Made by a program: the position numbers and the translations under genes. The notes beneath the pieces are model-generated. The model made no database searches. It had not been told where the DNA came from and saw nothing but the letters and a program-made list of their open reading frames with translations. Below, in pieces: positions 25,154 through 49,519 of a stretch of DNA of 64,000 bases (position 1 is the stretch's first letter; the number at the start of each line of letters is the position of its first letter). Origin of the DNA: a virus; the IMG/VR virus record IMGVR_UViG_3300032304_003098, positions 1 to 64,000 of that record, one strand, 5' to 3'.

Positions 25154-27820
25154 ATGGATTTACTCAATAAACTAAAAACTCTTAGAAATACAACTACTTC
25201 TCCTGAAGTGAAAGCTATCTGCGAATCTAACATTCAAAAAATAGAAAGGGGGGAGCCAAACATTAATTCAGATTCGATTATGGAGTCGATCCAAAATTTC
25301 GAACCGCTGAACGAAAATGTTCAAGATCCCTTTCAATTAATGAGAGAGCAAGAACTAAATCGTTCTAAAAATGCTGCCAGCAGATTAATGGAATCCTGGG
25401 GAGGAATTGGTAACGGCTTGTCAAAAAATGCTGGAAGTTATGTTGAGGGAGAAAAAGCACAGCCTCAAAAATTTGATTCCACTAGTTTGAACGAAAGCTT
25501 GTCCCACCTTTCTTCACAAGACCAAGGAGCAGCAGCATTCTTGAAGTCCGAAGAAGTAAACAACTTGGGTGTTTTTGAAAGCATTAACACGATTAGGAAT
25601 TCTGGGATTTTTGAACATCCTTCTATCAAAATTATTTGTGAAAAATACTTTCATCTTTTAAAAAACAAGAATATGCCAGAATTTTTGGTAGCAGAAGGAT
25701 TTTTACAGGATTTAAAAAACTTCGATTGGGATGAAAGAATTCAGGACATCACCGAATCGCTGAGTGAAAAATTGACAGATCTAAGACCAGAAATAGAAGT
25801 TTCAAAAGCTCTTTATGCTATTTCAAGTAATGCTGGCTCTGATTTCTATTCCCCGGTTACTGAATCTTTAAACAAATGGCTCGTGTCGGAAAACAAATCT
25901 ATCTCTTTATTGTCTAAAGATATTTCCAGATGGCAGTTTAATCCGATAGTTAGAAATTTGCTGAACAATCTTTCTCTTTTGGAAAAAGACTCTTCAAAAT
26001 TGAATATTCCTATTCACGCCGGAAATTCTTCAGTCCGCAGGGTTTATTCTCCGGTTTTGGTAGAAGGGGGAAAAACAATTTTTACCGTCGGATCGAATGT
26101 ATTTGAAGGTTCAAACCAAGGTCTGAAAAGATTGAATCGTGGCCAAGTTGCTGCTTTACCTAAAAATTACTTGTCAGTTTTGGAATCTTTCTATGCTTCA
26201 TATGTGAAGGTAAACGAAAATGGATTGAATGTATTTGTAGGTAAACACAAATTTTCATTGATTGAAGAATCCGAAAAAACTTCAGTTCTTTGTAATGGTA
26301 ACCCCCTGAGGTTTGATTCCAAAATCAATCTTTCTAAAGCTATCGGTATAGAAATTTCAGGTTCTACTGGAGTAAATGAAAACAAAGTTGTATTTGACAT
26401 TTTGAATTTGTACGAGAACTTTTCGTCTATCGTGGAACTAGACTTTGCTAAAAGAATCGAGTCCAAAGTCTATGAAGGAGCTTCTGTTAATTTAATTAAA
26501 TGGCAGGACAGAATCTTCTTAAATAGAATCAATGAATCAATGTCTGATAATTCTGTATTTGAAGTCAATGGAACTCAGGCCACAAACATGGTAAGAGAAT
26601 TTTTGAAGTATGATATTTCAGAGGGTCTTACTGAATTTTTGGAAGGAGAATCTAGGATTAAGTCCATTATGCTCAATGATAGAAAGAAGCTGATGGAAAA
26701 TATCACTGTTTTGGAAGGGCAATTAAATAAAGTTGAATCTCAAATGAGTCTTAGTCCGTTGTTTGCCAATTCTCCAGAATTACATAGGGCACAAAATTTG
26801 TTGGAAAAAGAACTTTCATCTCTCCGCAAAAAATGGTCAGCAGTAAATGCTGAATTGGAAAAGATTGAATCCCAACCTCTTTCTTTCGAGGAAATGTTCG
26901 AAGACGACAAATTCAACGTGGGTGAATATATTAAGGTAATTGAATCAGGGAATACTGGTAAAATAATTTCTATTGATAGCACTTCTGGATCTTATACGGT
27001 CCTCATGGATAATGGCAGAACCGGAGATTTCAAAATTGATGAAATTGTAAATCTGGATGATGCTTTATCTATGGCAGGTGACGAGAATCAAGCAGATGCC
27101 GAAACTCAGGAGGAACTGAAAGAAGCTTCTCAACAGTTGGCTACAGCACCTGGTAAATCAACCAAGGAAAAAAAGGATGCAGTCCCCGGTAATACAATGA
27201 GAAAAAATACCAAAGCTGCTCCTAAAGGTAAAGACAACAACAAACTAGGACAGAAAGATTATGAAAATTTGAAAGATGCAAATTTAGAAGAAGCTCCAGA
27301 AGGCAAGGAAAAACACACCAAGTACAAAGCAACTAAAGGAGCTGGTTATAATTTGTCGGAAGATACCAGGTTCAATAAATCTGATGTTAAACTTATGAAA
27401 CTTGCTGAGACCCCTGGATCTGAAGAAGGAGATGCAGATTACGACGTGAAGGGAATCAGATATAAGGCAAAAAACCCACAAGTCATGAAGACTGATCCAA
27501 ATTTTGCTTCAGCTCCAGGTAGTGTTAAAGGGAAAAAACTTCATTACAAGGTAGATGATGAAATGGGTTACAATGTGGATGAGCAAAATGATTTAGAAAA
27601 AACAAACCAAAATTTGGCTGTTGCTCCTGGTAAATCCGAAGGAGAAGCTGGATATGCAGTGAGAACTATCAAAGGTAAAGCACACAGTCCCCAGTTGGAT
27701 AAGACAAATCCAAATTTTGCAATAGCGCCTTCTAAAGGAGCAGATGGAAAGTTGGGATACAAGTCAAATTCAGAAATGGGTTATAACATTGACGAAAGCG
27801 AAGAGTCAAAAAAAAACTAA
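25154..27820 (+). CDS. 888-aa protein with C-terminal APG repeats (0-frame product)
   Basis: No family is recognised for the bulk. The N-terminus contains NFEPLNE (about residues 48-54), resembling the (L/I)-x-E processing sites of the phage's head proteins. Residues about 480-580 are coiled coil. Near 590-640 there is a small beta domain (GEYIKVIESGNTGKIISI) like an SH3/KOW fold. From about 660 to the end there are six degenerate repeats of about 36 residues centred on (N/L)-(F/L)-A-x-A-P-(G/S). The repeats resume after the stop in the -1 frame (see 27817). It is likely a virion or head-assembly protein because it precedes gp55, gp4 and the portals. Confidence 0.6.
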   Translation: MDLLNKLKTLRNTTTSPEVKAICESNIQKIERGEPNINSDSIMESIQNFEPLNENVQDPFQLMREQELNRSKNAASRLMESWGGIGNGLSKNAGSYVEGEKAQPQKFDSTSLNESLSHLSSQDQGAAAFLKSEEVNNLGVFESINTIRNSGIFEHPSIKIICEKYFHLLKNKNMPEFLVAEGFLQDLKNFDWDERIQDITESLSEKLTDLRPEIEVSKALYAISSNAGSDFYSPVTESLNKWLVSENKSISLLSKDISRWQFNPIVRNLLNNLSLLEKDSSKLNIPIHAGNSSVRRVYSPVLVEGGKTIFTVGSNVFEGSNQGLKRLNRGQVAALPKNYLSVLESFYASYVKVNENGLNVFVGKHKFSLIEESEKTSVLCNGNPLRFDSKINLSKAIGIEISGSTGVNENKVVFDILNLYENFSSIVELDFAKRIESKVYEGASVNLIKWQDRIFLNRINESMSDNSVFEVNGTQATNMVREFLKYDISEGLTEFLEGESRIKSIMLNDRKKLMENITVLEGQLNKVESQMSLSPLFANSPELHRAQNLLEKELSSLRKKWSAVNAELEKIESQPLSFEEMFEDDKFNVGEYIKVIESGNTGKIISIDSTSGSYTVLMDNGRTGDFKIDEIVNLDDALSMAGDENQADAETQEELKEASQQLATAPGKSTKEKKDAVPGNTMRKNTKAAPKGKDNNKLGQKDYENLKDANLEEAPEGKEKHTKYKATKGAGYNLSEDTRFNKSDVKLMKLAETPGSEEGDADYDVKGIRYKAKNPQVMKTDPNFASAPGSVKGKKLHYKVDDEMGYNVDEQNDLEKTNQNLAVAPGKSEGEAGYAVRTIKGKAHSPQLDKTNPNFAIAPSKGADGKLGYKSNSEMGYNIDESEESKKN

Positions 27821-27980
27821 AAAAAATACTCAGCCGGGTTTGGGCTTTCGCACCCTCGAGTCCAGATCAAGACAAAAAACCCGAGCCTTTTGTGAATGAT
27901 TATAAAAAAGGTTTGAGTTTTGCTCCTACTGGGAAACCTGAGTCTGAAAATAACTTAGAATTTAGGGGAGATAATACTGA
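27130..27980 (+). repeat. ~36-codon APG repeats spanning a stop codon
   Basis: Units such as LATAPGKSTKE, NLEEAPEGKEK, FASAPGSVKGK, LAVAPGKSEGE and FAIAPSKGADG in frame 0 are followed by WAFAPSSPDQDKKPE and LSFAPTGKPES in the -1 frame beyond the TAA at 27818. The repeat period and theme continue across the frame change. Confidence 0.65.
27811..27817 (+). other. candidate -1 programmed frameshift heptamer A-AAA-AAC
   Basis: In frame 0 the codons are AAA-AAA-AAC-TAA, giving the canonical X-XXY-YYZ slippery heptamer directly before the stop. A potential stem CGGGTTT (27835-27841) with AAACCCG (27877-27883) lies downstream. The nine-A tract could also reflect a sequencing indel or a real inactivating mutation. 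Confidence 0.5.
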
Positions 27981-27996
27981 GGAAAATAAAGTCTAA
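27817..27996 (+). CDS. -1 frameshift extension of the 888-aa protein
   Basis: 59 codons in the -1 frame from CTA at 27817 to TAA at 27994-27996, without an ATG start. The peptide carries two more FAP motifs (WAFAPSSPD and LSFAPTGKPE) and an acidic tail (GDNTEENKV), like the repeats of the upstream ORF. Frameshifting would give a protein of about 947 aa. If instead there is a single-base error, this is simply the true C-terminus. Nothing else is seen up to 28054. Confidence 0.5.
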   Translation, partial: LKKILSRVWAFAPSSPDQDKKPEPFVNDYKKGLSFAPTGKPESENNLEFRGDNTEENKV

Positions 27997-28054
27997 GTGA
28001 AACTAACCTCGAGGTTAAAACTAAGATTCTAAGTTATCCATTTTCAAACAAATA

Positions 28055-28414
28055 ATGTCTAAAGTTTATGTTACAAATGCTAGTTTAATGGAAGCCATTT
28101 TGGAGTCCAAAGAAAAAGGGCAGTTGACACCAAAAACTATAGAAATGTTTAATTTGATGATAACAGGTATTTCCAAGAAAATGGCTTACAAAGATCCAGA
28201 CGACAAAGCAGATTGTATGGCTTTTGCAATGGAAGACCTTTGTAAATATTGGAACAGATTTGATCCTGCCAAATCTAATAATCCGTTTGCTTATTATACG
28301 CAGATAGCTAAAAATGGATTTGCCAAGGGATGGAAAAAAATACATCCTCCAAAAGCACCCAAAACTATTCCATTTTCTTATATTACAGGAGAAGACAATT
28401 CCTATAATATTTAG
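28055..28414 (+). CDS. 55: late transcription sigma factor (gp55-like)
   Basis: 119 aa. LMITGISKKMAYKD, then MAFAMEDLCKYWNRFDPAKSN and NPFAYYTQIAKNGFAKGWKK aligns by eye with T4 gp55 (core-binding helix, then the K-x-x-N-P-H/F-A-Y-x-T-Q segment corresponding to sigma region 2). T4 gp55 (185 aa) lets host RNA polymerase read TATAAATA late promoters with the sliding clamp. This copy lacks the long T4 C-terminal part, including an obvious clamp-binding tail. The GATATATA boxes in this window are its likely targets (inference). Confidence 0.85.
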   Translation: MSKVYVTNASLMEAILESKEKGQLTPKTIEMFNLMITGISKKMAYKDPDDKADCMAFAMEDLCKYWNRFDPAKSNNPFAYYTQIAKNGFAKGWKKIHPPKAPKTIPFSYITGEDNSYNI

Positions 28415-29529: not shown

Positions 29530-31176
29530 ATGGCAGGATTTAACGAGAATCCAAACACCAACCCTATTTTTCAAAGAATCAGGGATTCCGTCAAAAATCT
29601 GAGTAATTTCGGATTGAGATATGGAGACATGGTGGTAAAAAATTCTCAAGCTATCGGTACCACGGAAGCGGAATTTTTAAAAAAAGGTCCAATTGAAGAC
29701 GAGACGACTTTTTTTTCTTTAGGCCGTCAGGATACCACAACAAGGCAATACATTTCTTATTTCGATAAAGATTATGCAGGAAAAAGAGACTATCTGAGAA
29801 AATTTTCTTTGAATCCAGAAATCGAATACATTTTAGATACTGTTTGTGATGAATCTATTTCCTATGATGGTTATAATTTTTTTGCTTATCCGGCATTTTT
29901 AAACATTACAGGAATTAAGGAAGGGGTCATAGATAAGATTGACTCCACATACAAGAAATTGTATGACATGTTTGGCTTCAACGATGACATTTCTGCTTGG
30001 CAGTATTTCAGGCAATTATTGGTTGATGGATTTGTTGCCTTTGAAATTATTTACGACGATAAGGGAAAAAACATTATAGGTTTCAAAGAACTCGATGCAA
30101 CCACGCTGATGCCATCTGTAGAAAAACAGAAGGATGGTACTTTTTTGAATGTTTGGTATCAATACCCTAAAGACGAAAGAAAAAGGAGAATGCTTTATGA
30201 TTCTCAGATTATTTACATCTCCTACGCCAAAGGCAATTCTGTGTCAAGAGTTAGTTACACCGAAAGATTAATCCGCCCTTATAACGTCCTGAGGATCATT
30301 GAATATACACGTGTTATTTGGTCAGTGATGAATGCATCATTTCGTCTCAAAATGACAGTTCCCGTGGGGTCCAGATCGCAACAAAAGGCGATGCAAACCT
30401 TAGGTGAATTAATGAGTATCTATAAAGAAGACATTCAGTTCAATGATGAAAGTGGAGAACTTTCAGTAAATGGTCAACCTAAGATTCAGTTTTACAAAAA
30501 CTATCTGATGCCCAAAGGTGCATTAGGAACTCCAAACATTGAGCCTCTAAACACTGTCGGTCCAAATTTAAATGATCCGGCTCCACTGGCTTATTTTTTT
30601 GATAAACTTGTTCAGGAATCAAAAATTCCTTTCTCGAGATTTCAAGGTCCAGATGGAGGATCTATTGGTAAATATGCTAACTCTGCTGAAGGCCTGGATA
30701 AGGAAGAAATTAGGTTTGCCAAGTTTATCATGAGGTTAAGATCTATTTTTCAAGATATTCTAATCAAACCTTTGTGGATTCAATTGTGTAGAGACTTTCC
30801 CCAGTTGGAGAAAGATTATATGTTCAGAAGTCAATTGGGCCTTACCTTTATTTCTGATAATCCCTTTAGGGTGAATCAGGAGATAGAAACTATGAACAAA
30901 AGAAAAGAGTCTATTGATGCCATGTACCAGTTGGTAGATGGAGAGGGACAACCTTTCTTTTCTTTGGGATATTTGATTGAAAATTTTCTTGGTATGACGG
31001 AAGACGATATTCGTTCTAACGAAGAGGCCAAGGAAAAAACAGAAAAAAAGAAAAAGAAATCTGAACCAGGAGAAGAGGACGGAGAAGAAGCTGGAGCAGC
31101 CCCAGGGGAATCCCCTACACCTCCAGCAGGTCCTGAACCTGGTGGTACACCCCCTGAAACAGAAACACCGGAATAA
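29530..31176 (+). CDS. 20: portal protein (gp20), copy 1
   Basis: 548-aa dodecameric portal subunit through which DNA enters and leaves the head. Conserved gp20-type stretches include YISYFDKDYAGKRDYLRKF, LDTVCDESI, WQYFRQLLVDGFVAFE, FKELDATTLMP, GNSVSRVSYTERLIRPYN and FYKNYLMPKG. The C-terminal 60 residues are Glu/Lys then Pro/Gly-rich, probably disordered. It is followed two bases later by a second portal gene of nearly the same length. Confidence 0.92.
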   Translation: MAGFNENPNTNPIFQRIRDSVKNLSNFGLRYGDMVVKNSQAIGTTEAEFLKKGPIEDETTFFSLGRQDTTTRQYISYFDKDYAGKRDYLRKFSLNPEIEYILDTVCDESISYDGYNFFAYPAFLNITGIKEGVIDKIDSTYKKLYDMFGFNDDISAWQYFRQLLVDGFVAFEIIYDDKGKNIIGFKELDATTLMPSVEKQKDGTFLNVWYQYPKDERKRRMLYDSQIIYISYAKGNSVSRVSYTERLIRPYNVLRIIEYTRVIWSVMNASFRLKMTVPVGSRSQQKAMQTLGELMSIYKEDIQFNDESGELSVNGQPKIQFYKNYLMPKGALGTPNIEPLNTVGPNLNDPAPLAYFFDKLVQESKIPFSRFQGPDGGSIGKYANSAEGLDKEEIRFAKFIMRLRSIFQDILIKPLWIQLCRDFPQLEKDYMFRSQLGLTFISDNPFRVNQEIETMNKRKESIDAMYQLVDGEGQPFFSLGYLIENFLGMTEDDIRSNEEAKEKTEKKKKKSEPGEEDGEEAGAAPGESPTPPAGPEPGGTPPETETPE

Positions 31177-31178
31177 TT

Positions 31179-32780
31179 ATGGCAGGTTTTAATGATGATA
31201 GTAGTCAACAGCGTTCCTTTTTAGGCAACTTGTATCGAAATTTGTCTAGAATCGGGAGATTTGGGATGCAATATGAGGATATGGTAATCCGAAATTCCCA
31301 GGCTATAGGAGCCACCGAATCTACATTCTTTAATAATCAAGGAACTGGATTTACTGAGGATGATGCTTTCTTTTGGACTTTAGGTTATCAAGACACTAGG
31401 GTAAGAAAATATATTGCCTATTTCGATAAAGATTATTTGGGCAAAAGAGAATTTCTCAGAAAATTTGCTCTAAATGGAGAAATTGATTTTATTCTAGACA
31501 CCTTGTCTGACGATGGAATTAATTACGATGACAAAAATTTCTTCGGCTATCCTTCTCTATTAAATGTAGATTTGAAACCGGAAGTTCGAACCAAAGTAGA
31601 GGAGAATTTCAGAACTCTGTATATGCTTTTTGGTTTTCAACAAAGCACTTTGGCTTGGCAGTATTTTCGTCAATTTCTAGTAGATGGTTTTTTAGCTTTT
31701 GAAATTGTTTATTCTACGGATGGCAAGAAAATTGTTGGATTCAAAGAATTAGATGCCACATCTTTGCAACCAGCCACCGAACAACAGCCCAACAAGGAAT
31801 TTCAACAAATTTGGATTCAATATCCCGGAGATCCCCGGATGACCCGTAAACTAAAAGCTGAACAAGTTATTTATCTCTCTTATGCTAAAGGAAACTCCGT
31901 TTCTAGAGTAAGTTATACAGAAAGACTTATTAGATCCTATAATATTCTAAGGGTGATGGAAAACACCAGAATAATTTGGAATGTGATGAATGCCTCATAT
32001 CGCTTGAAGTTTGTCATCCCAGTCGGAACCCAATCCGCCCAGAAAGCGATGCAAACCTTGGGTCAACTTATGTCTCAGTACAAGGAGGAAATTCAAATTA
32101 ACGATACTTCCGGTGAATTAACAGTAAACGGAGCACCCAAGATTCAATTTTATAAAAATTATTTGTTCCCTGAAAAGGACGGAGAAAGCCCAGACATCAA
32201 CACATTAAATCCCAATGGTCCTGATTTCAATGTGATGGAAAATGTTGTGTATTTTTACAATAAATTGAAATTAGATTCGAAGATCCCCTATGCTAGGTTT
32301 GCTTCCCGTAGTGGACCAGCTACCTATCAAATTTCTATCGATCAGTTGGAGAGGGATGAAATTAGATATGAAAAATTTGTAACCCGCCTGAGATCAGTCT
32401 TTCAAGAGCTTTTGGTTAAACCTCTGTACATTCAAACCTGTTTAGATTTTCCAGCTTTATCTGAAGATAGATCTTTCAAAGTAAATTTGGGGTTAAATTT
32501 TGTGAAGGAAAATGTCTTTGAACAACTCATTATGTTGTCCAATTACACCAAAAGAACTGCTTTCATAACAGCTTTAGGTGACATGAAACAAAGAATAGGA
32601 GAGGAAGAAATTCCCTATTTCGATAAAGAATGGCTGATTAAAAGGTGGCTAGGTTTAAGTATGGACGAATATAGGGCCAATGAAAAATACAAAGAGGAAG
32701 AAAAGAAAAGAGCAGAAAAAGATAAGAAGAACAAGAAGCCAGAGGGAGCAGAAGGAGGAGCACCGGAATTCACTCTTTAA
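31179..32780 (+). CDS. 20: portal protein (gp20), copy 2
   Basis: 533-aa full-length paralog of the preceding portal. Shared runs include IAYFDKDYLGKREFLRKF, WQYFRQFLVDGFLAFE, GNSVSRVSYTERLIRSYN, KAMQTLGQLMSQYKEEIQ and GAPKIQFYKNYLFP. No frameshift or loss of conserved regions is seen, so both copies look functional. The C-terminus is Lys/Glu-rich. T4 has a single gp20. Two intact portals in tandem are unusual; a mixed ring or a second use such as a neck-like ring is conceivable. Confidence 0.9.
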   Translation: MAGFNDDSSQQRSFLGNLYRNLSRIGRFGMQYEDMVIRNSQAIGATESTFFNNQGTGFTEDDAFFWTLGYQDTRVRKYIAYFDKDYLGKREFLRKFALNGEIDFILDTLSDDGINYDDKNFFGYPSLLNVDLKPEVRTKVEENFRTLYMLFGFQQSTLAWQYFRQFLVDGFLAFEIVYSTDGKKIVGFKELDATSLQPATEQQPNKEFQQIWIQYPGDPRMTRKLKAEQVIYLSYAKGNSVSRVSYTERLIRSYNILRVMENTRIIWNVMNASYRLKFVIPVGTQSAQKAMQTLGQLMSQYKEEIQINDTSGELTVNGAPKIQFYKNYLFPEKDGESPDINTLNPNGPDFNVMENVVYFYNKLKLDSKIPYARFASRSGPATYQISIDQLERDEIRYEKFVTRLRSVFQELLVKPLYIQTCLDFPALSEDRSFKVNLGLNFVKENVFEQLIMLSNYTKRTAFITALGDMKQRIGEEEIPYFDKEWLIKRWLGLSMDEYRANEKYKEEEKKRAEKDKKNKKPEGAEGGAPEFTL

Positions 32781-45747: not shown

Positions 45748-47775
45748 ATGGAAGATCTACCATTTATGAACGAGAACTGGGTGTTTATTTTGGAGAAGCA
45801 AGGTCATCACGTAGAGGCTTCTAAAACCTCAGATGGCTACACTCTACAGGGTATAGCAGCACAGTTTGGCAAAGAAAATAACAACAACAGGATCTACGAG
45901 GAAAGCGAGTATCTGCCACATCTGGATTATCTGAAAGAAAAAATCAAACAAAAAAGATTGGTTGGTGAATTAGACCATCCTGAAAAATTTGATGTTTCTC
46001 TGAAAAACATTTCTCATATTATAGAAGATTTACAGTACGACAAAAGTGCTCGGGTATTGAAGATCAAGGTCAAATTGCTTGATACTCCAGCTGGTCAAAT
46101 TGCCAAAAAATTGGTTGAAGCTGGAATTCCTCTTTCCATTTCTTCTCGTGCCGCTGGTAATGTGGGTCCTAACAAAAAAGTTCAAATTAAAAAAATCTTC
46201 ACTTATGATTTGGTAGCTGATCCTGGATTTCAGGATGCACAACTAGAAAGAGTGTACGAAAGTGCTGGTTTTTCATTCTCTGAATTTTCAGATAGACACA
46301 AAAATTCCGTTGTTAACGATTTAAAATGTTTGAATGAGTCCTTAGGAATCAAAAATGATTCGGGAGTGATGATATATAAGGTTGATGATAACGAAGAATT
46401 CAAAAAAATATTCAAAACAGAAAAAAATAAAATTGACATCATGGAGTCCAGAAAAGAATATGTAACGAGTGAAGAACTCAACAATTATTCCATTTTCTTA
46501 AAGAAAAAAATGGATGAGCTCGAGTCTCAAATTAAAGAAGCTAAGTCTACCCAGAATTTGGTAGAAAGCTCGGATTCATACACACAAAAACTTGAAGAAA
46601 GAGTAGACCGTCTTGAAAAGTACTGTGAGTACTTGGCCGAGAATTTGGAAAATTCCATTAAGTATGGTGAATATGTAGCCGAGAATTTGGACAATTCCAT
46701 CACTTACAGTAAATATCTAGCCGAGAATTTGGACAAGAACATTTCTTACTCTAAGTATCTGGCTGAAAACGTAGATAAGTCAATTCTCTATTCAGAGTAC
46801 GTGGCAGAAAATGTCGACAAAGGAATTAACTACTCTAAATATCTTGCCGAGAAATTAGATGACAGCATTCAATATGCAGAATACCTGGCTGAAAATGTGG
46901 ATCATACAATTTCCTATTCCGAATACCTGGCCGAAAATGTGGACAGAAATATTTCTTATTCTGAGTATTTGGCAGAGAAGTTGGACAGAAACATTTCTTA
47001 TGCCGAATACCTGGCCGAGAATTTGGACAAAGGCATAGCCTACTCAGAGTATCTAGGCGAAAATCTCGATAAAGGGATTGCTTACTCTGAATATCTGGGT
47101 GAAAAACTAGAACAAGGAATTTCTTATTCGGAATATCTAGCGGAAAATGTGAATAGAACCATCTCCTATTCCGAGTACATCGCAGAAAAATTAAATGGCA
47201 CGATTTCGTTCACCGAGTCTGTATCCGAAAGCGTTGGTTATCAACCCCTAGTTGAAAAAGACGCACGGAGACAGGCAGAAGTCGCCTCAAGAACTGAATT
47301 AGCGGAGTCTGGCTTTGCCGGAGATTATACCAATCTCGGCAAACAAATTGATTTTCTAATTGAGTCGGTCCAAACCCAAAAGACCGAAACAAACCAAAAA
47401 CAGGCTGCAAGCAAATGGCAGCCGACTGCTGACACACAAAAAGCAGATCAAGTTCTCAATGAGAACGATGAAGCCAAATTTAAAACTGGCCACAAGTTCA
47501 TTGATGAGATGCCAACGGATTACGTTCCGATTTGGGAGTCGTTAAGTGAAGGACACCAGCAATCTATTATTGCCCAGGCTGCTCTTCGTAATCTTAACAC
47601 CCCTTATCAGATTAGAAATTTCTGGTCAACTCGTCAGTTTGGACCTAAGCCTTTGGCTTTGCAAAAATTGCAAGAGAATGAAAATTTCTCAGAGGCCTCT
47701 AACCCTCGGACCCCAACTCCTTACAACAACGATTACCTAAGTTGGGTGGCTAAGTCGCTAGAAGGCAAATTCTAA
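45748..47775 (+). CDS. 21: prohead protease (gp21) fused to repeat-containing scaffold
   Basis: 675 aa. Residues 1-190 are a T4 gp21-type serine protease: GKENNNNRIY, GELDHPE (His77) and SISSRAAG (Ser about 132). Residues 190-290 are a charged linker. Residues 292-487 are 14 tandem 14-residue repeats (Y-S-E-Y-L-A-E-N-L-D-K-x-I-S). The C-terminal 170 residues (WESLSEGHQQSIIAQAALRN, then TPYQIRNFWSTRQFGP) look like a T4 gp22-type scaffold end. T4 makes protease and scaffold from separate genes. gp21 cuts after (L/I)-x-E, and nearly every repeat contains L-A-E, so the scaffold appears built for digestion. An in-frame ATG at 46441 could give a scaffold-only product. Confidence 0.85.
   Translation: MEDLPFMNENWVFILEKQGHHVEASKTSDGYTLQGIAAQFGKENNNNRIYEESEYLPHLDYLKEKIKQKRLVGELDHPEKFDVSLKNISHIIEDLQYDKSARVLKIKVKLLDTPAGQIAKKLVEAGIPLSISSRAAGNVGPNKKVQIKKIFTYDLVADPGFQDAQLERVYESAGFSFSEFSDRHKNSVVNDLKCLNESLGIKNDSGVMIYKVDDNEEFKKIFKTEKNKIDIMESRKEYVTSEELNNYSIFLKKKMDELESQIKEAKSTQNLVESSDSYTQKLEERVDRLEKYCEYLAENLENSIKYGEYVAENLDNSITYSKYLAENLDKNISYSKYLAENVDKSILYSEYVAENVDKGINYSKYLAEKLDDSIQYAEYLAENVDHTISYSEYLAENVDRNISYSEYLAEKLDRNISYAEYLAENLDKGIAYSEYLGENLDKGIAYSEYLGEKLEQGISYSEYLAENVNRTISYSEYIAEKLNGTISFTESVSESVGYQPLVEKDARRQAEVASRTELAESGFAGDYTNLGKQIDFLIESVQTQKTETNQKQAASKWQPTADTQKADQVLNENDEAKFKTGHKFIDEMPTDYVPIWESLSEGHQQSIIAQAALRNLNTPYQIRNFWSTRQFGPKPLALQKLQENENFSEASNPRTPTPYNNDYLSWVAKSLEGKF
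46371..46378 (+). promoter_or_regulatory. possible internal GATATATA promoter inside protease gene
   Basis: A perfect box within coding sequence, 62 bases before the in-frame ATG at 46441 (Met232). It could start a transcript for a separate scaffold protein. It may also be chance in AT-rich DNA. Confidence 0.3.
46621..47208 (+). repeat. 14 x 42-nt coding repeats with L-x-E protease sites
   Basis: Fourteen exact-length units of 42 bases, each encoding Y-(S/A/G/C)-(E/K)-Y-(L/V/I)-(A/G)-E-(N/K)-(L/V)-(D/E/N)-x-x-I-x. No unit has an indel. Twelve units have L or I at the P3 position of L-x-E; two have V. Codons vary between units, so the peptide is selected rather than recently amplified DNA. 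Confidence 0.9.
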
Positions 47776-47800: not shown

Positions 47801-49519
47801 ATGAAACTAATTAATGAAGCTGAGATCTTCGATACCTGGTCGCCTATCATCGAGCAGAAAGCCGGTATCACTGATCCATCCAAAAAAGCGTGGTTGTCTA
47901 TATACTGCCACTATCACTCCCTCAACGAGTCTGCTGGTGCATACCAGTCTTTGAACGTCGTCAACGGTATGGGAGCCGTTGCACCTCCTGTTTTCCCAGC
48001 CTCAACTCAAGCTGGCTCTGTTGGTGGTTACGGGCCAAACCAAGGATTCTACAGCCAATCTTGGCAAGGATCTGGCGATAAGTTTCCTTCGCTTTTGCCT
48101 TTGGCTATTCAGGTAGCTGCAAAAACCGTAGGTTTCGATATTGTTCCAGTTATTCCAATGTCTGGTCCTTCCGGTGTTCTATCCTATCTGGACTATGTGT
48201 ATGCTGGCGGTAAGCTCAGCCCACAATCTACAGGTACCACTGCAGCCGATGCCTTGGCCGCAGCTCCTGCTATGATTAAGCTGCAAATTACTTCCTATGC
48301 TGGAGGATATCCTGGTAGTTTCGTAGTAGGTACAACTTATTTCATCACCAATGCTTCTTCAGCAGCTGAATATATCACCACTAAGTTTGTTGGTCTTTCA
48401 AGAATCGATGGTTTCCCAATCTTCGAAATTACTGCAATCACTGCAGGGGAATCTGTTGCATCTGTTATCAATGGAGGTGCTACCAAAGTCGGTACTGGAG
48501 TAGATGGAAGCCAAGCAGGAACCACTACTGCTTCGGCTTCTTTGGTTAAGGCACTTGAAGATCACATCCAAGGTTTCTCTGGAGCTGGTTTCTACGACAA
48601 CCAAGACTGGCAGGGTCCTTACGTTGATGGTACCAAGACGTACAACCCAATGCTTAGAAGCGTAGGTGAAGAAAACTACTACAACTTGATGGGTCTTTCG
48701 ACTTTCACAAAGTTTGTAGAAGCCGACACTTTCCAAGTAGCTGCTTCCGTCACCACGGAGCAAATCCAAGACCTTAATAAGCAGTTCGGTATCGATGTCA
48801 TTTCGATGATTGAGAACGCACTGGTCAATGAGGTTTCTCAGGCTATTAACAAGCACATTCTTGCCAGAGCTTTTGCTTTAGGCTGGTCTAACTGTGATAA
48901 CTTCAACACAGTAGAAGGTCAAAATTTGAACTTGAATCTGGTCATCGGTGGAACCGCTGGTTCTTACACCATTCCTTCTTATGTTGGAAAAACAGACCAG
49001 GCTTTGACCATGACTGGTACTGCAGGTCCTGCTTCTGGAACTTATGAGAACTTGTCAACTCTACAAAGAAGACTTTTCTCTCGTATCCTGGCAGCCGCTA
49101 ACGTAGTAGCTAACAGAGGTAGAAGAGGTCCTGCTAACTTCATTGTCACCAACGCAAACTTGGCTTCGGCAATGCAGGATATCAGCCAATTCACCTTTGC
49201 TCCTTTCACTAATACCTTGACTCAGAACAACGGTACTTTGTACCCAGTTGGTTCTTTGGCCGGTATGACAGTGTATGTGGACCAAAACATGAGGTACAAC
49301 GATACCAGAATCCTCGTTGGAAGAAAAGGTGGTGATGATGAGCCAGGTCTCAAATTCATGCCTTACATGATGGCAGAATCAATTCAGACAATCTCTGAAG
49401 GTACAATGTCTCCTAAAATCGCAGTTAAGTCTCGTTACGCTCTTGTAGAGGCTGGTTTCCACCCCGAAACCATGTATCTTTGCTTTAATGTTAACTTGCC
49501 TGCTGGCGGTCTGGTTTAA
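47801..49519 (+). CDS. 23: major capsid protein (gp23-like)
   Basis: 572 aa, HK97 fold expected. The N-terminus KLINEAEIFDTWSPIIEQ matches gp23-type pro-regions. SLNE at 40-43 is the likely cleavage site, equivalent to the F-L-T-E cut in T4 gp23, and the next part (GMGAVAPPVFPAST) is the mature start region. The C-terminal half has RVITSANVVANRGRRGPANFIV-like text (AAANVVANRGRRGPANFIV), TLYPVGSLAGMTVYVDQN and FMPYMMAESIQTISEG, typical of gp23. Residues about 150-255 form an insertion of Ala/Gly-rich beta segments. Base composition is visibly richer in G+C than its neighbours, fitting a very highly expressed gene. A terminator follows. Confidence 0.95.
   Translation: MKLINEAEIFDTWSPIIEQKAGITDPSKKAWLSIYCHYHSLNESAGAYQSLNVVNGMGAVAPPVFPASTQAGSVGGYGPNQGFYSQSWQGSGDKFPSLLPLAIQVAAKTVGFDIVPVIPMSGPSGVLSYLDYVYAGGKLSPQSTGTTAADALAAAPAMIKLQITSYAGGYPGSFVVGTTYFITNASSAAEYITTKFVGLSRIDGFPIFEITAITAGESVASVINGGATKVGTGVDGSQAGTTTASASLVKALEDHIQGFSGAGFYDNQDWQGPYVDGTKTYNPMLRSVGEENYYNLMGLSTFTKFVEADTFQVAASVTTEQIQDLNKQFGIDVISMIENALVNEVSQAINKHILARAFALGWSNCDNFNTVEGQNLNLNLVIGGTAGSYTIPSYVGKTDQALTMTGTAGPASGTYENLSTLQRRLFSRILAAANVVANRGRRGPANFIVTNANLASAMQDISQFTFAPFTNTLTQNNGTLYPVGSLAGMTVYVDQNMRYNDTRILVGRKGGDDEPGLKFMPYMMAESIQTISEGTMSPKIAVKSRYALVEAGFHPETMYLCFNVNLPAGGLV

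Follow-up and report, generated by a model that had tools for sequence, protein, structure and literature searches.

A conserved run of nine adenines at the end of a phage head-module gene: a candidate site of programmed transcriptional slippage

Introduction

Does a gene that ends in a run of adenines, with a second reading frame open behind its stop codon, encode one protein or two, and if two, which machinery sets the forms apart? The question is raised by an 888-aa open reading frame (ORF) in the window, by which we mean the whole stretch of 64,000 nucleotides analysed here, itself part of a virus record of 109,577 bases. The ORF (25154-27820, + strand) closes with TCA-AAA-AAA-AAC-TAA. A preliminary description had read its end as AAA-AAA-AAC-TAA with a slippery heptamer, which we located at 27811-27817 with the TAA at 27818-27820, and had pointed to repeats that go on in the -1 frame, with two more FAP units, up to a stop at 27994; all of these were found. 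AAAAAAC is frequent in the AT-rich window (40 copies in any frame), so the heptamer by itself is not notable. Recoding in phages is usually described as ribosomal. The features of the locus are as follows.

25154..27820, + strand: frame-0 gene, 888 aa (ORF and relatives)
27808..27816, + strand: A9 run, candidate slippage site (template strand: T9); each of the 32 representatives has exactly nine A's
27811..27817, + strand: A_AAA_AAC heptamer in the 0 frame, a possible ribosomal -1 slip site
27818..27820, + strand: frame-0 stop TAA directly 3' of the run; position conserved, codon varying (TAA, TGA, TAG)
27817..27993, + strand: -1-frame extension of 59 codons, LKKILSRVWAFAPSS...SFAPTGK...EENKV, with two FAP/KAP units and an acidic end
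27994..27996, + strand: extension stop TAA
28000..28036, + strand: conserved intergenic element TGAAACTAACCYCGRGGTT..ACTAA separating the extension from gp55, present once in each locus of the window's group
28055..28414, + strand: late-transcription sigma factor (gp55-like), the downstream gene, syntenic in relatives

Results

The gene and its second reading frame

A single C (27817) separates the A9 run from the TAA. The -1 frame is open from 27817 (CTA) to 27996 and encodes LKKILSRVWAFAPSSPDQDKKPEPFVNDYKKGLSFAPTGKPESENNLEFRGDNTEENKV, in which the two added FAP units are WAFAPSS and SFAPTGK; with this extension, the long form has 947 aa, versus 888 aa for the short form. Near the junction, the -1 frame of the window contains no ATG, GTG, or TTG, and no copies of the extension were found elsewhere in the genome. 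A reading with two +1 indels, giving NTQPGLGFAP..., was rejected, as the relatives keep LKKILSRVW in the -1 frame.

The 888-aa protein is made up of an N-terminal part of ~580 aa and, after a weak SH3/KOW-like match at residues 589-620, a repeat-rich tail (~655-888) that ends in SEESKKN. Two types of repeats alternate in the tail, '[LF]AxAPGK' and 'GYN[LIV]DE'. The former occurs twice more in the extension, which lacks the latter and has an acidic end. For the 888-aa protein, there was no PHROG, no gathering-level Pfam, and no credible PDB match, and no homology to tail chaperones was found. Homologs in two related lineages, L088 and L094, have one or two PG_binding_1 insertions close to the N-terminus (Pfam E-values of 4e-13 and 2e-26), and this peptidoglycan-binding domain hints at a virion protein. 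The tail repeats are putative docking motifs, which would make the long form a minor subunit with extra docking sites, in the manner of other frameshift extensions of phages.

Run, stop, and extension are conserved among relatives

A first search returned 14 relatives (65-97% identity), and an alignment search yielded 80 loci (38-97% identity). Detailed comparisons were based on 32 IMG/VR representatives with <95% identity to each other, spanning 40-100% protein identity. In nearly all relatives that cover the site, the ORF ends in ...KK(N/K), its stop comes immediately 3' of the A run, and 50-61 codons of -1 extension follow. All 32 representatives have the A9 run, a stop adjacent to it, and the extension, which is open for 50-61 codons in each of them. 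Since assemblies made independently from many metagenomes share A9-C-TAA with a -1 extension, and the latter shows conservation at the protein level, chance and assembly error are excluded.

Synonymous positions in this set are nearly randomised, as the median identity at 4-fold sites is 0.43. Third-base changes on the tree averaged 9.2 per codon column (sd 3.0, 678 columns). The codon before the 2 lysines has undergone 5 amino-acid changes (Ser, Leu, Val) and no third-base change at all, its third base always being A; an A occupies the third position in ~30% of the TCN and GTN codons of these genes. This wobble position is thus invariant though it lies outside A_AAA_AAC, suggesting selection beyond the need of the heptamer. 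Both Lys codons are AAA in 32/32 representatives, the last codon is AAC in 30 and AAG in 2, and the frame-0 stop is TAA in 30, with one TGA and one TAG. Judged from these alignments, the conserved element is the A9 run, rather than A_AAA_AAC in phase.

In the alignment of relatives, conservation of the extension begins at the junction codon, and its two AP units are invariant. Within the window clade, 25 of the 34 variable sites in the first 40 codons of the extension are third codon positions of the -1 frame. For the extension, pN/pS was 0.17 in the window clade; the values for the two groups were 0.38 and 0.43. The second-frame ORF is under purifying selection. In the other members, apart from L094 and its relatives, the conserved part likewise has no -1-frame ATG, GTG, or TTG ahead of it. 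In the relatives compared at the site, the +1 frame meets a stop within 14 codons, so that deletion of an A would yield nearly the short form. Because run, stop, and extension are conserved in all 32 representatives and the extension is under purifying selection, it is very likely that this site gives rise to two gene products.

Several homologs deviate elsewhere in the gene. Those of L012/L026 and L176 are broken by an early in-frame stop, at codons 34 and 464, respectively, which may reflect either faulty sequencing or a genuinely disrupted gene; L012 retains the A9 site and the extension despite this stop. In L011/L025, an insertion of ~60 residues, absent from their close relative L012, lies just upstream of the slip site, before IDESEESKKN, while the last ~30 bases before the stop remain identical. 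The sole match in the search among cultured relatives was LR756500, a 462-kb uncultured phage, whose homolog is 27% identical, 617 aa long, and has neither the repeat tail nor the slip site. In Chryseobacterium phage MA9V-2 and phage PAU, the genes that precede gp55 showed no significant similarity, and a search of genome contigs found no relative.

Natural variants of the site

The phase and context of the run differ in a number of more distant lineages. In L122, A9 lies in another phase (GAA AAA AAA ACC), from which the extension is again reached by a -1 shift. Two further lineages, beyond the 32 representatives, carry 10 A's, followed by GCT TAA in L151 and directly by TAA in L161. A_AAA_AAA is the sole heptamer in L151, L161, and L122, and A_AAA_AAG takes the place of A_AAA_AAC in L077, L083, L091, L128, L129, and L179. 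L088 and its relatives read A9-CCCC-AGT and carry the extension in frame 0; a -1 shift in L088 would hit a stop three codons past the run. In L094 and its relatives, the main ORF stops early, and the extension forms the C-terminal end of a second ORF, which is 74 aa long and has its own ATG. There, frame 0 contains A9-T, and slipping by -1 leads immediately to TAG. The in-frame versions read KKN-L in L094 and KKN-P in L088. What L122, L151, L161, L088, and L094 have in common is a run of 9-10 A's, not a heptamer in phase. The relatives with flipped frames provide a natural experiment for telling which product is the one that matters.

Stimulatory elements and the host

A 7-bp complementarity, CGGGTTT/AAACCCG (27835-27841 with 27877-27883), is present in the window, where the preliminary description had placed a potential stem. 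The stem is complete in the window only and is not conserved: among 16 relatives, one of its two outer pairs is possible in just 1 and the other in just 2, with no compensatory changes. RNAalifold found 0 compensatory pairs in the relatives, and folding of the 70 nt downstream in members gave z-scores around zero (about -2 to +2) and no consistent structure. With the stem not conserved and the z-scores scattered, a classical downstream stimulatory structure is not supported. No Rfam family was detected at the slip site, nor any tRNA in the window.

A Shine-Dalgarno (SD)-like motif precedes the start of just one of the 47 window genes, and leaders are A-rich, as in Bacteroidota. Bacteroidia ribosomes make no use of the SD, their anti-SD being sequestered (PMC9976891). 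With 46 of the 47 genes devoid of such a motif, an SD stimulator is unlikely to work in the host. An upstream GAGGAG was considered as a dnaX-type SD stimulator and rejected, as the genome makes no use of the SD and only part of the family carries the motif, which is not kept in the second group, with GACGAT or GACGAC in others. Phages of Prevotella, Tenacibaculum, Chryseobacterium, and Flavobacterium are among the nearest named relatives of the head protein. Related Bacteroidetes phages encode bS21 (PMC9723584), which is absent from the window's record and present in G001, the record of family member L065. Together, the lack of SD use, the relatives of the head protein, and the bS21 in the record of L065 make a Bacteroidota host likely.

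Genome neighbourhood

The gene is part of the head module, and gp55 is the next gene downstream. Its T4-like neighbours are gp55, a gp4-like head-closure nuclease, two gp20-type portals, a prohead protease, a gp23-type head protein, a terminase, and a tail sheath, and its carriers are large T4-like phages, probably with Bacteroidota hosts. The major head protein is encoded at 47801-49519, separately from the 888-aa gene. The element at 28000-28036 is possibly a promoter of the late sigma gene; in a second group, the same interval holds an intrinsic terminator followed by TGAAATC..ACTAAAA.

Two further features of this region were recorded. The two gp20-type portal genes (29530-31176 and 31179-32780; Portal_T4, E-values of 1e-60 and 1e-58) are adjacent, and Bacteroidetes phages with bS21 have likewise been described with plural 'portal vertex proteins'. 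The prohead protease ORF (45748-47775, 675 aa) contains the protease domain in its first ~230 residues, followed by a long array of 14-residue repeats of the YSEYLAENVDKSI type (46636-47148, with a 42-base period).

Long runs are avoided elsewhere in these genomes

Runs were counted in 395 ORFs (128,000 codons) of these phages and compared with the expectation from synonymous codon shuffles; as the phages are related and their ORFs therefore not independent, the figures are to be read as ratios, not as tests. Outside the slip site, A runs of at least 9 were observed 4 times, versus ~38 expected. A8 runs were observed 43 times (86 expected) and T8 runs 6 times (20 expected), and A and T runs of at least 8 are depleted in all three phases. 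Such phase-independent avoidance is expected from indels in transcripts or during replication, and the avoidance of A7/U7 in E. coli has been read likewise (PMC4066793). The depletion fits long runs harming transcription whatever the frame. For A7 runs, a mild depletion is confined to the ribosomal slip phase (56 versus 71 expected), and ribosomal slippage may therefore also be a cost.

Discussion

We infer that programmed transcriptional slippage, turning A9 into A10 in the mRNA, probably sets the ratio of short to long form. Most transcripts would carry A9 and give the 888-aa form ending at the TAA. At A9, RNA polymerase would slip, so that a share of the transcripts gains one A; these A10 transcripts would give the 947-aa form, with two more FAP motifs and the junction SKKK-LKKIL. 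The slipping machinery would be RNA polymerase, not the ribosome, both forms would be made in amounts that matter, and the longer tail would equip a minor subunit of a protein related to the virion or its assembly with further binding motifs. In vivo, runs of nine A's or T's cause bacterial RNA polymerase to slip efficiently (PMC5009743), and in slippage at A7-A11, insertions, which give the -1 frame, exceed deletions (PMC6260861). That the run outlasts changes of phase and context supports polymerase slippage, as does the lack of SD use and of a conserved stem. Counting against it, T runs make the E. coli polymerase slip more than A runs do (PMC6260861). We propose more tentatively, with slightly more doubt than conviction, that a lineage of T4-like Bacteroidota phages sets the ratio of two forms by polymerase slippage at A9, and that this has been kept through a flip of frame and a move to a separate ORF.

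The main rival candidate for the slipping machinery is the ribosome, through programmed -1 frameshifting at A_AAA_AAC and the overlapping A_AAA_AAA, helped by the adjacent stop. Both routes give a product of equal length (947 aa) and differ in one junction residue, K for the polymerase and N for the ribosome (KKN-LKKIL). The canonical heptamer A_AAA_AAC/G is in phase and next to a stop in 32/32 representatives, the C or G after the run and the immediate stop in most members suit a pause at the stop codon, and variants are the shiftier A_AAA_AAG (six loci) or A_AAA_AAA (L151, L161). Conservation of the run is compatible as well, as a longer run adds the second, overlapping heptamer; A_AAA_AAC has been proven to act without a known stimulator in an IS element (PMC4066793), A7 runs are depleted only in the ribosomal slip phase, and the in-frame KKN-L and KKN-P of L094 and L088 match the ribosomal junction residue, a weak point in its favor. 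However, the invariant upstream wobble A lies outside A_AAA_AAC, there is neither a conserved stem nor an SD, and the phase of the site changes while the run stays. In addition, A_AAA_AAC is weak in E. coli, where it is far less shifty than A_AAA_AAG (PMC5009743). We therefore consider ribosomal frameshifting as the main route rather unlikely, though both kinds of slippage may act. Of the mechanism suggested in the preliminary description, the two protein forms, produced through a C-terminal extension in the -1 frame, are supported at the exact site, and the classical heptamer-plus-stem ribosomal signal is not.

Explanations at the level of the DNA fare worse. Homopolymers are prone to indels, and A10 occurs in L151 and L161, as would be expected if replication slippage varied the run between phage genomes and switched the extension on and off in populations by phase variation. 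This is very unlikely, however, given that the run is exactly nine in 32/32 representatives and that no relative has the extension fused by a change in run length alone: the fused L088 retains A9 and differs after the run, and the A10 members still require a -1 shift. Reinitiation after the TAA, with the extension as a separate small gene, has its parallel in the 74-aa ORF of L094 and its relatives, but in the window and the other members no ATG, GTG, or TTG precedes the conserved part in the -1 frame and conservation starts at the junction codon, making this extremely improbable. Finally, homopolymer runs are error-prone, and the preliminary description had held that a wrong count of A's would mean an assembly error. 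The A9 of the relatives rules this out; with the A count identical in many independent assemblies and the extension under purifying selection, the chance of a sequencing or assembly error, or of a decaying gene, is next to nil.

Polymerase slippage as favored here has its closest counterpart in Thermus thermophilus dnaX, where slippage at a nine-base A/T run gives two products of one gene (PMC5009743). Here too a nine-base run lies in the coding frame, and a run of at least nine A or T is kept irrespective of codon phase. In dnaX, as here, the short form is terminated by stops outside the frame of the long one. A difference is that the slipped product here would be the long form in most members; L088, with its long form in frame 0, resembles dnaX in this respect. 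A further difference is that we deal with a phage gene for which slippage is deduced. The A-rich heptamer and the -1 direction recall the ribosomal frameshift of E. coli dnaX (A_AAA_AAG, SD, stem-loop), but no SD or stem is conserved here, the heptamer is mostly A_AAA_AAC, and there are nine rather than six A's. As in T7 gene 10A/10B and the coat-protein frameshifts of Listeria and Lactobacillus phages, the shift would come at the end of a structural gene and yield a minor, C-terminally extended form; unlike those proteins, this one is not the major head protein, the slip sequence is another one, and the added tail consists of repeat motifs rather than being Ig-like. Lambda gpG/gpGT is a phage case of -1 recoding that sets a ratio of short to long form, although the present gene is not in the tail-chaperone position. 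Transcriptional slippage in Shigella spa13 and Citrobacter rodentium tssM similarly provides a fraction of the product with a required C-terminal segment, but those are bacterial secretion genes and this is a phage gene.

Neither this family nor programmed polymerase slippage in a phage structural-module gene was described in the open-licence literature searched, which is weak evidence. The nearest mention concerns Campylobacter phage CPt10, where slippage by the polymerase was suggested for one methyltransferase gene (PMC2853527). An extension of this kind is missed by gene callers, and the annotated C-terminus of the protein is likely wrong in such genomes. If programmed polymerase slippage is indeed at work here, phages can set protein ratios by this route too, using a site that consists of the run only, with no stem or SD, in hosts that ignore the SD.
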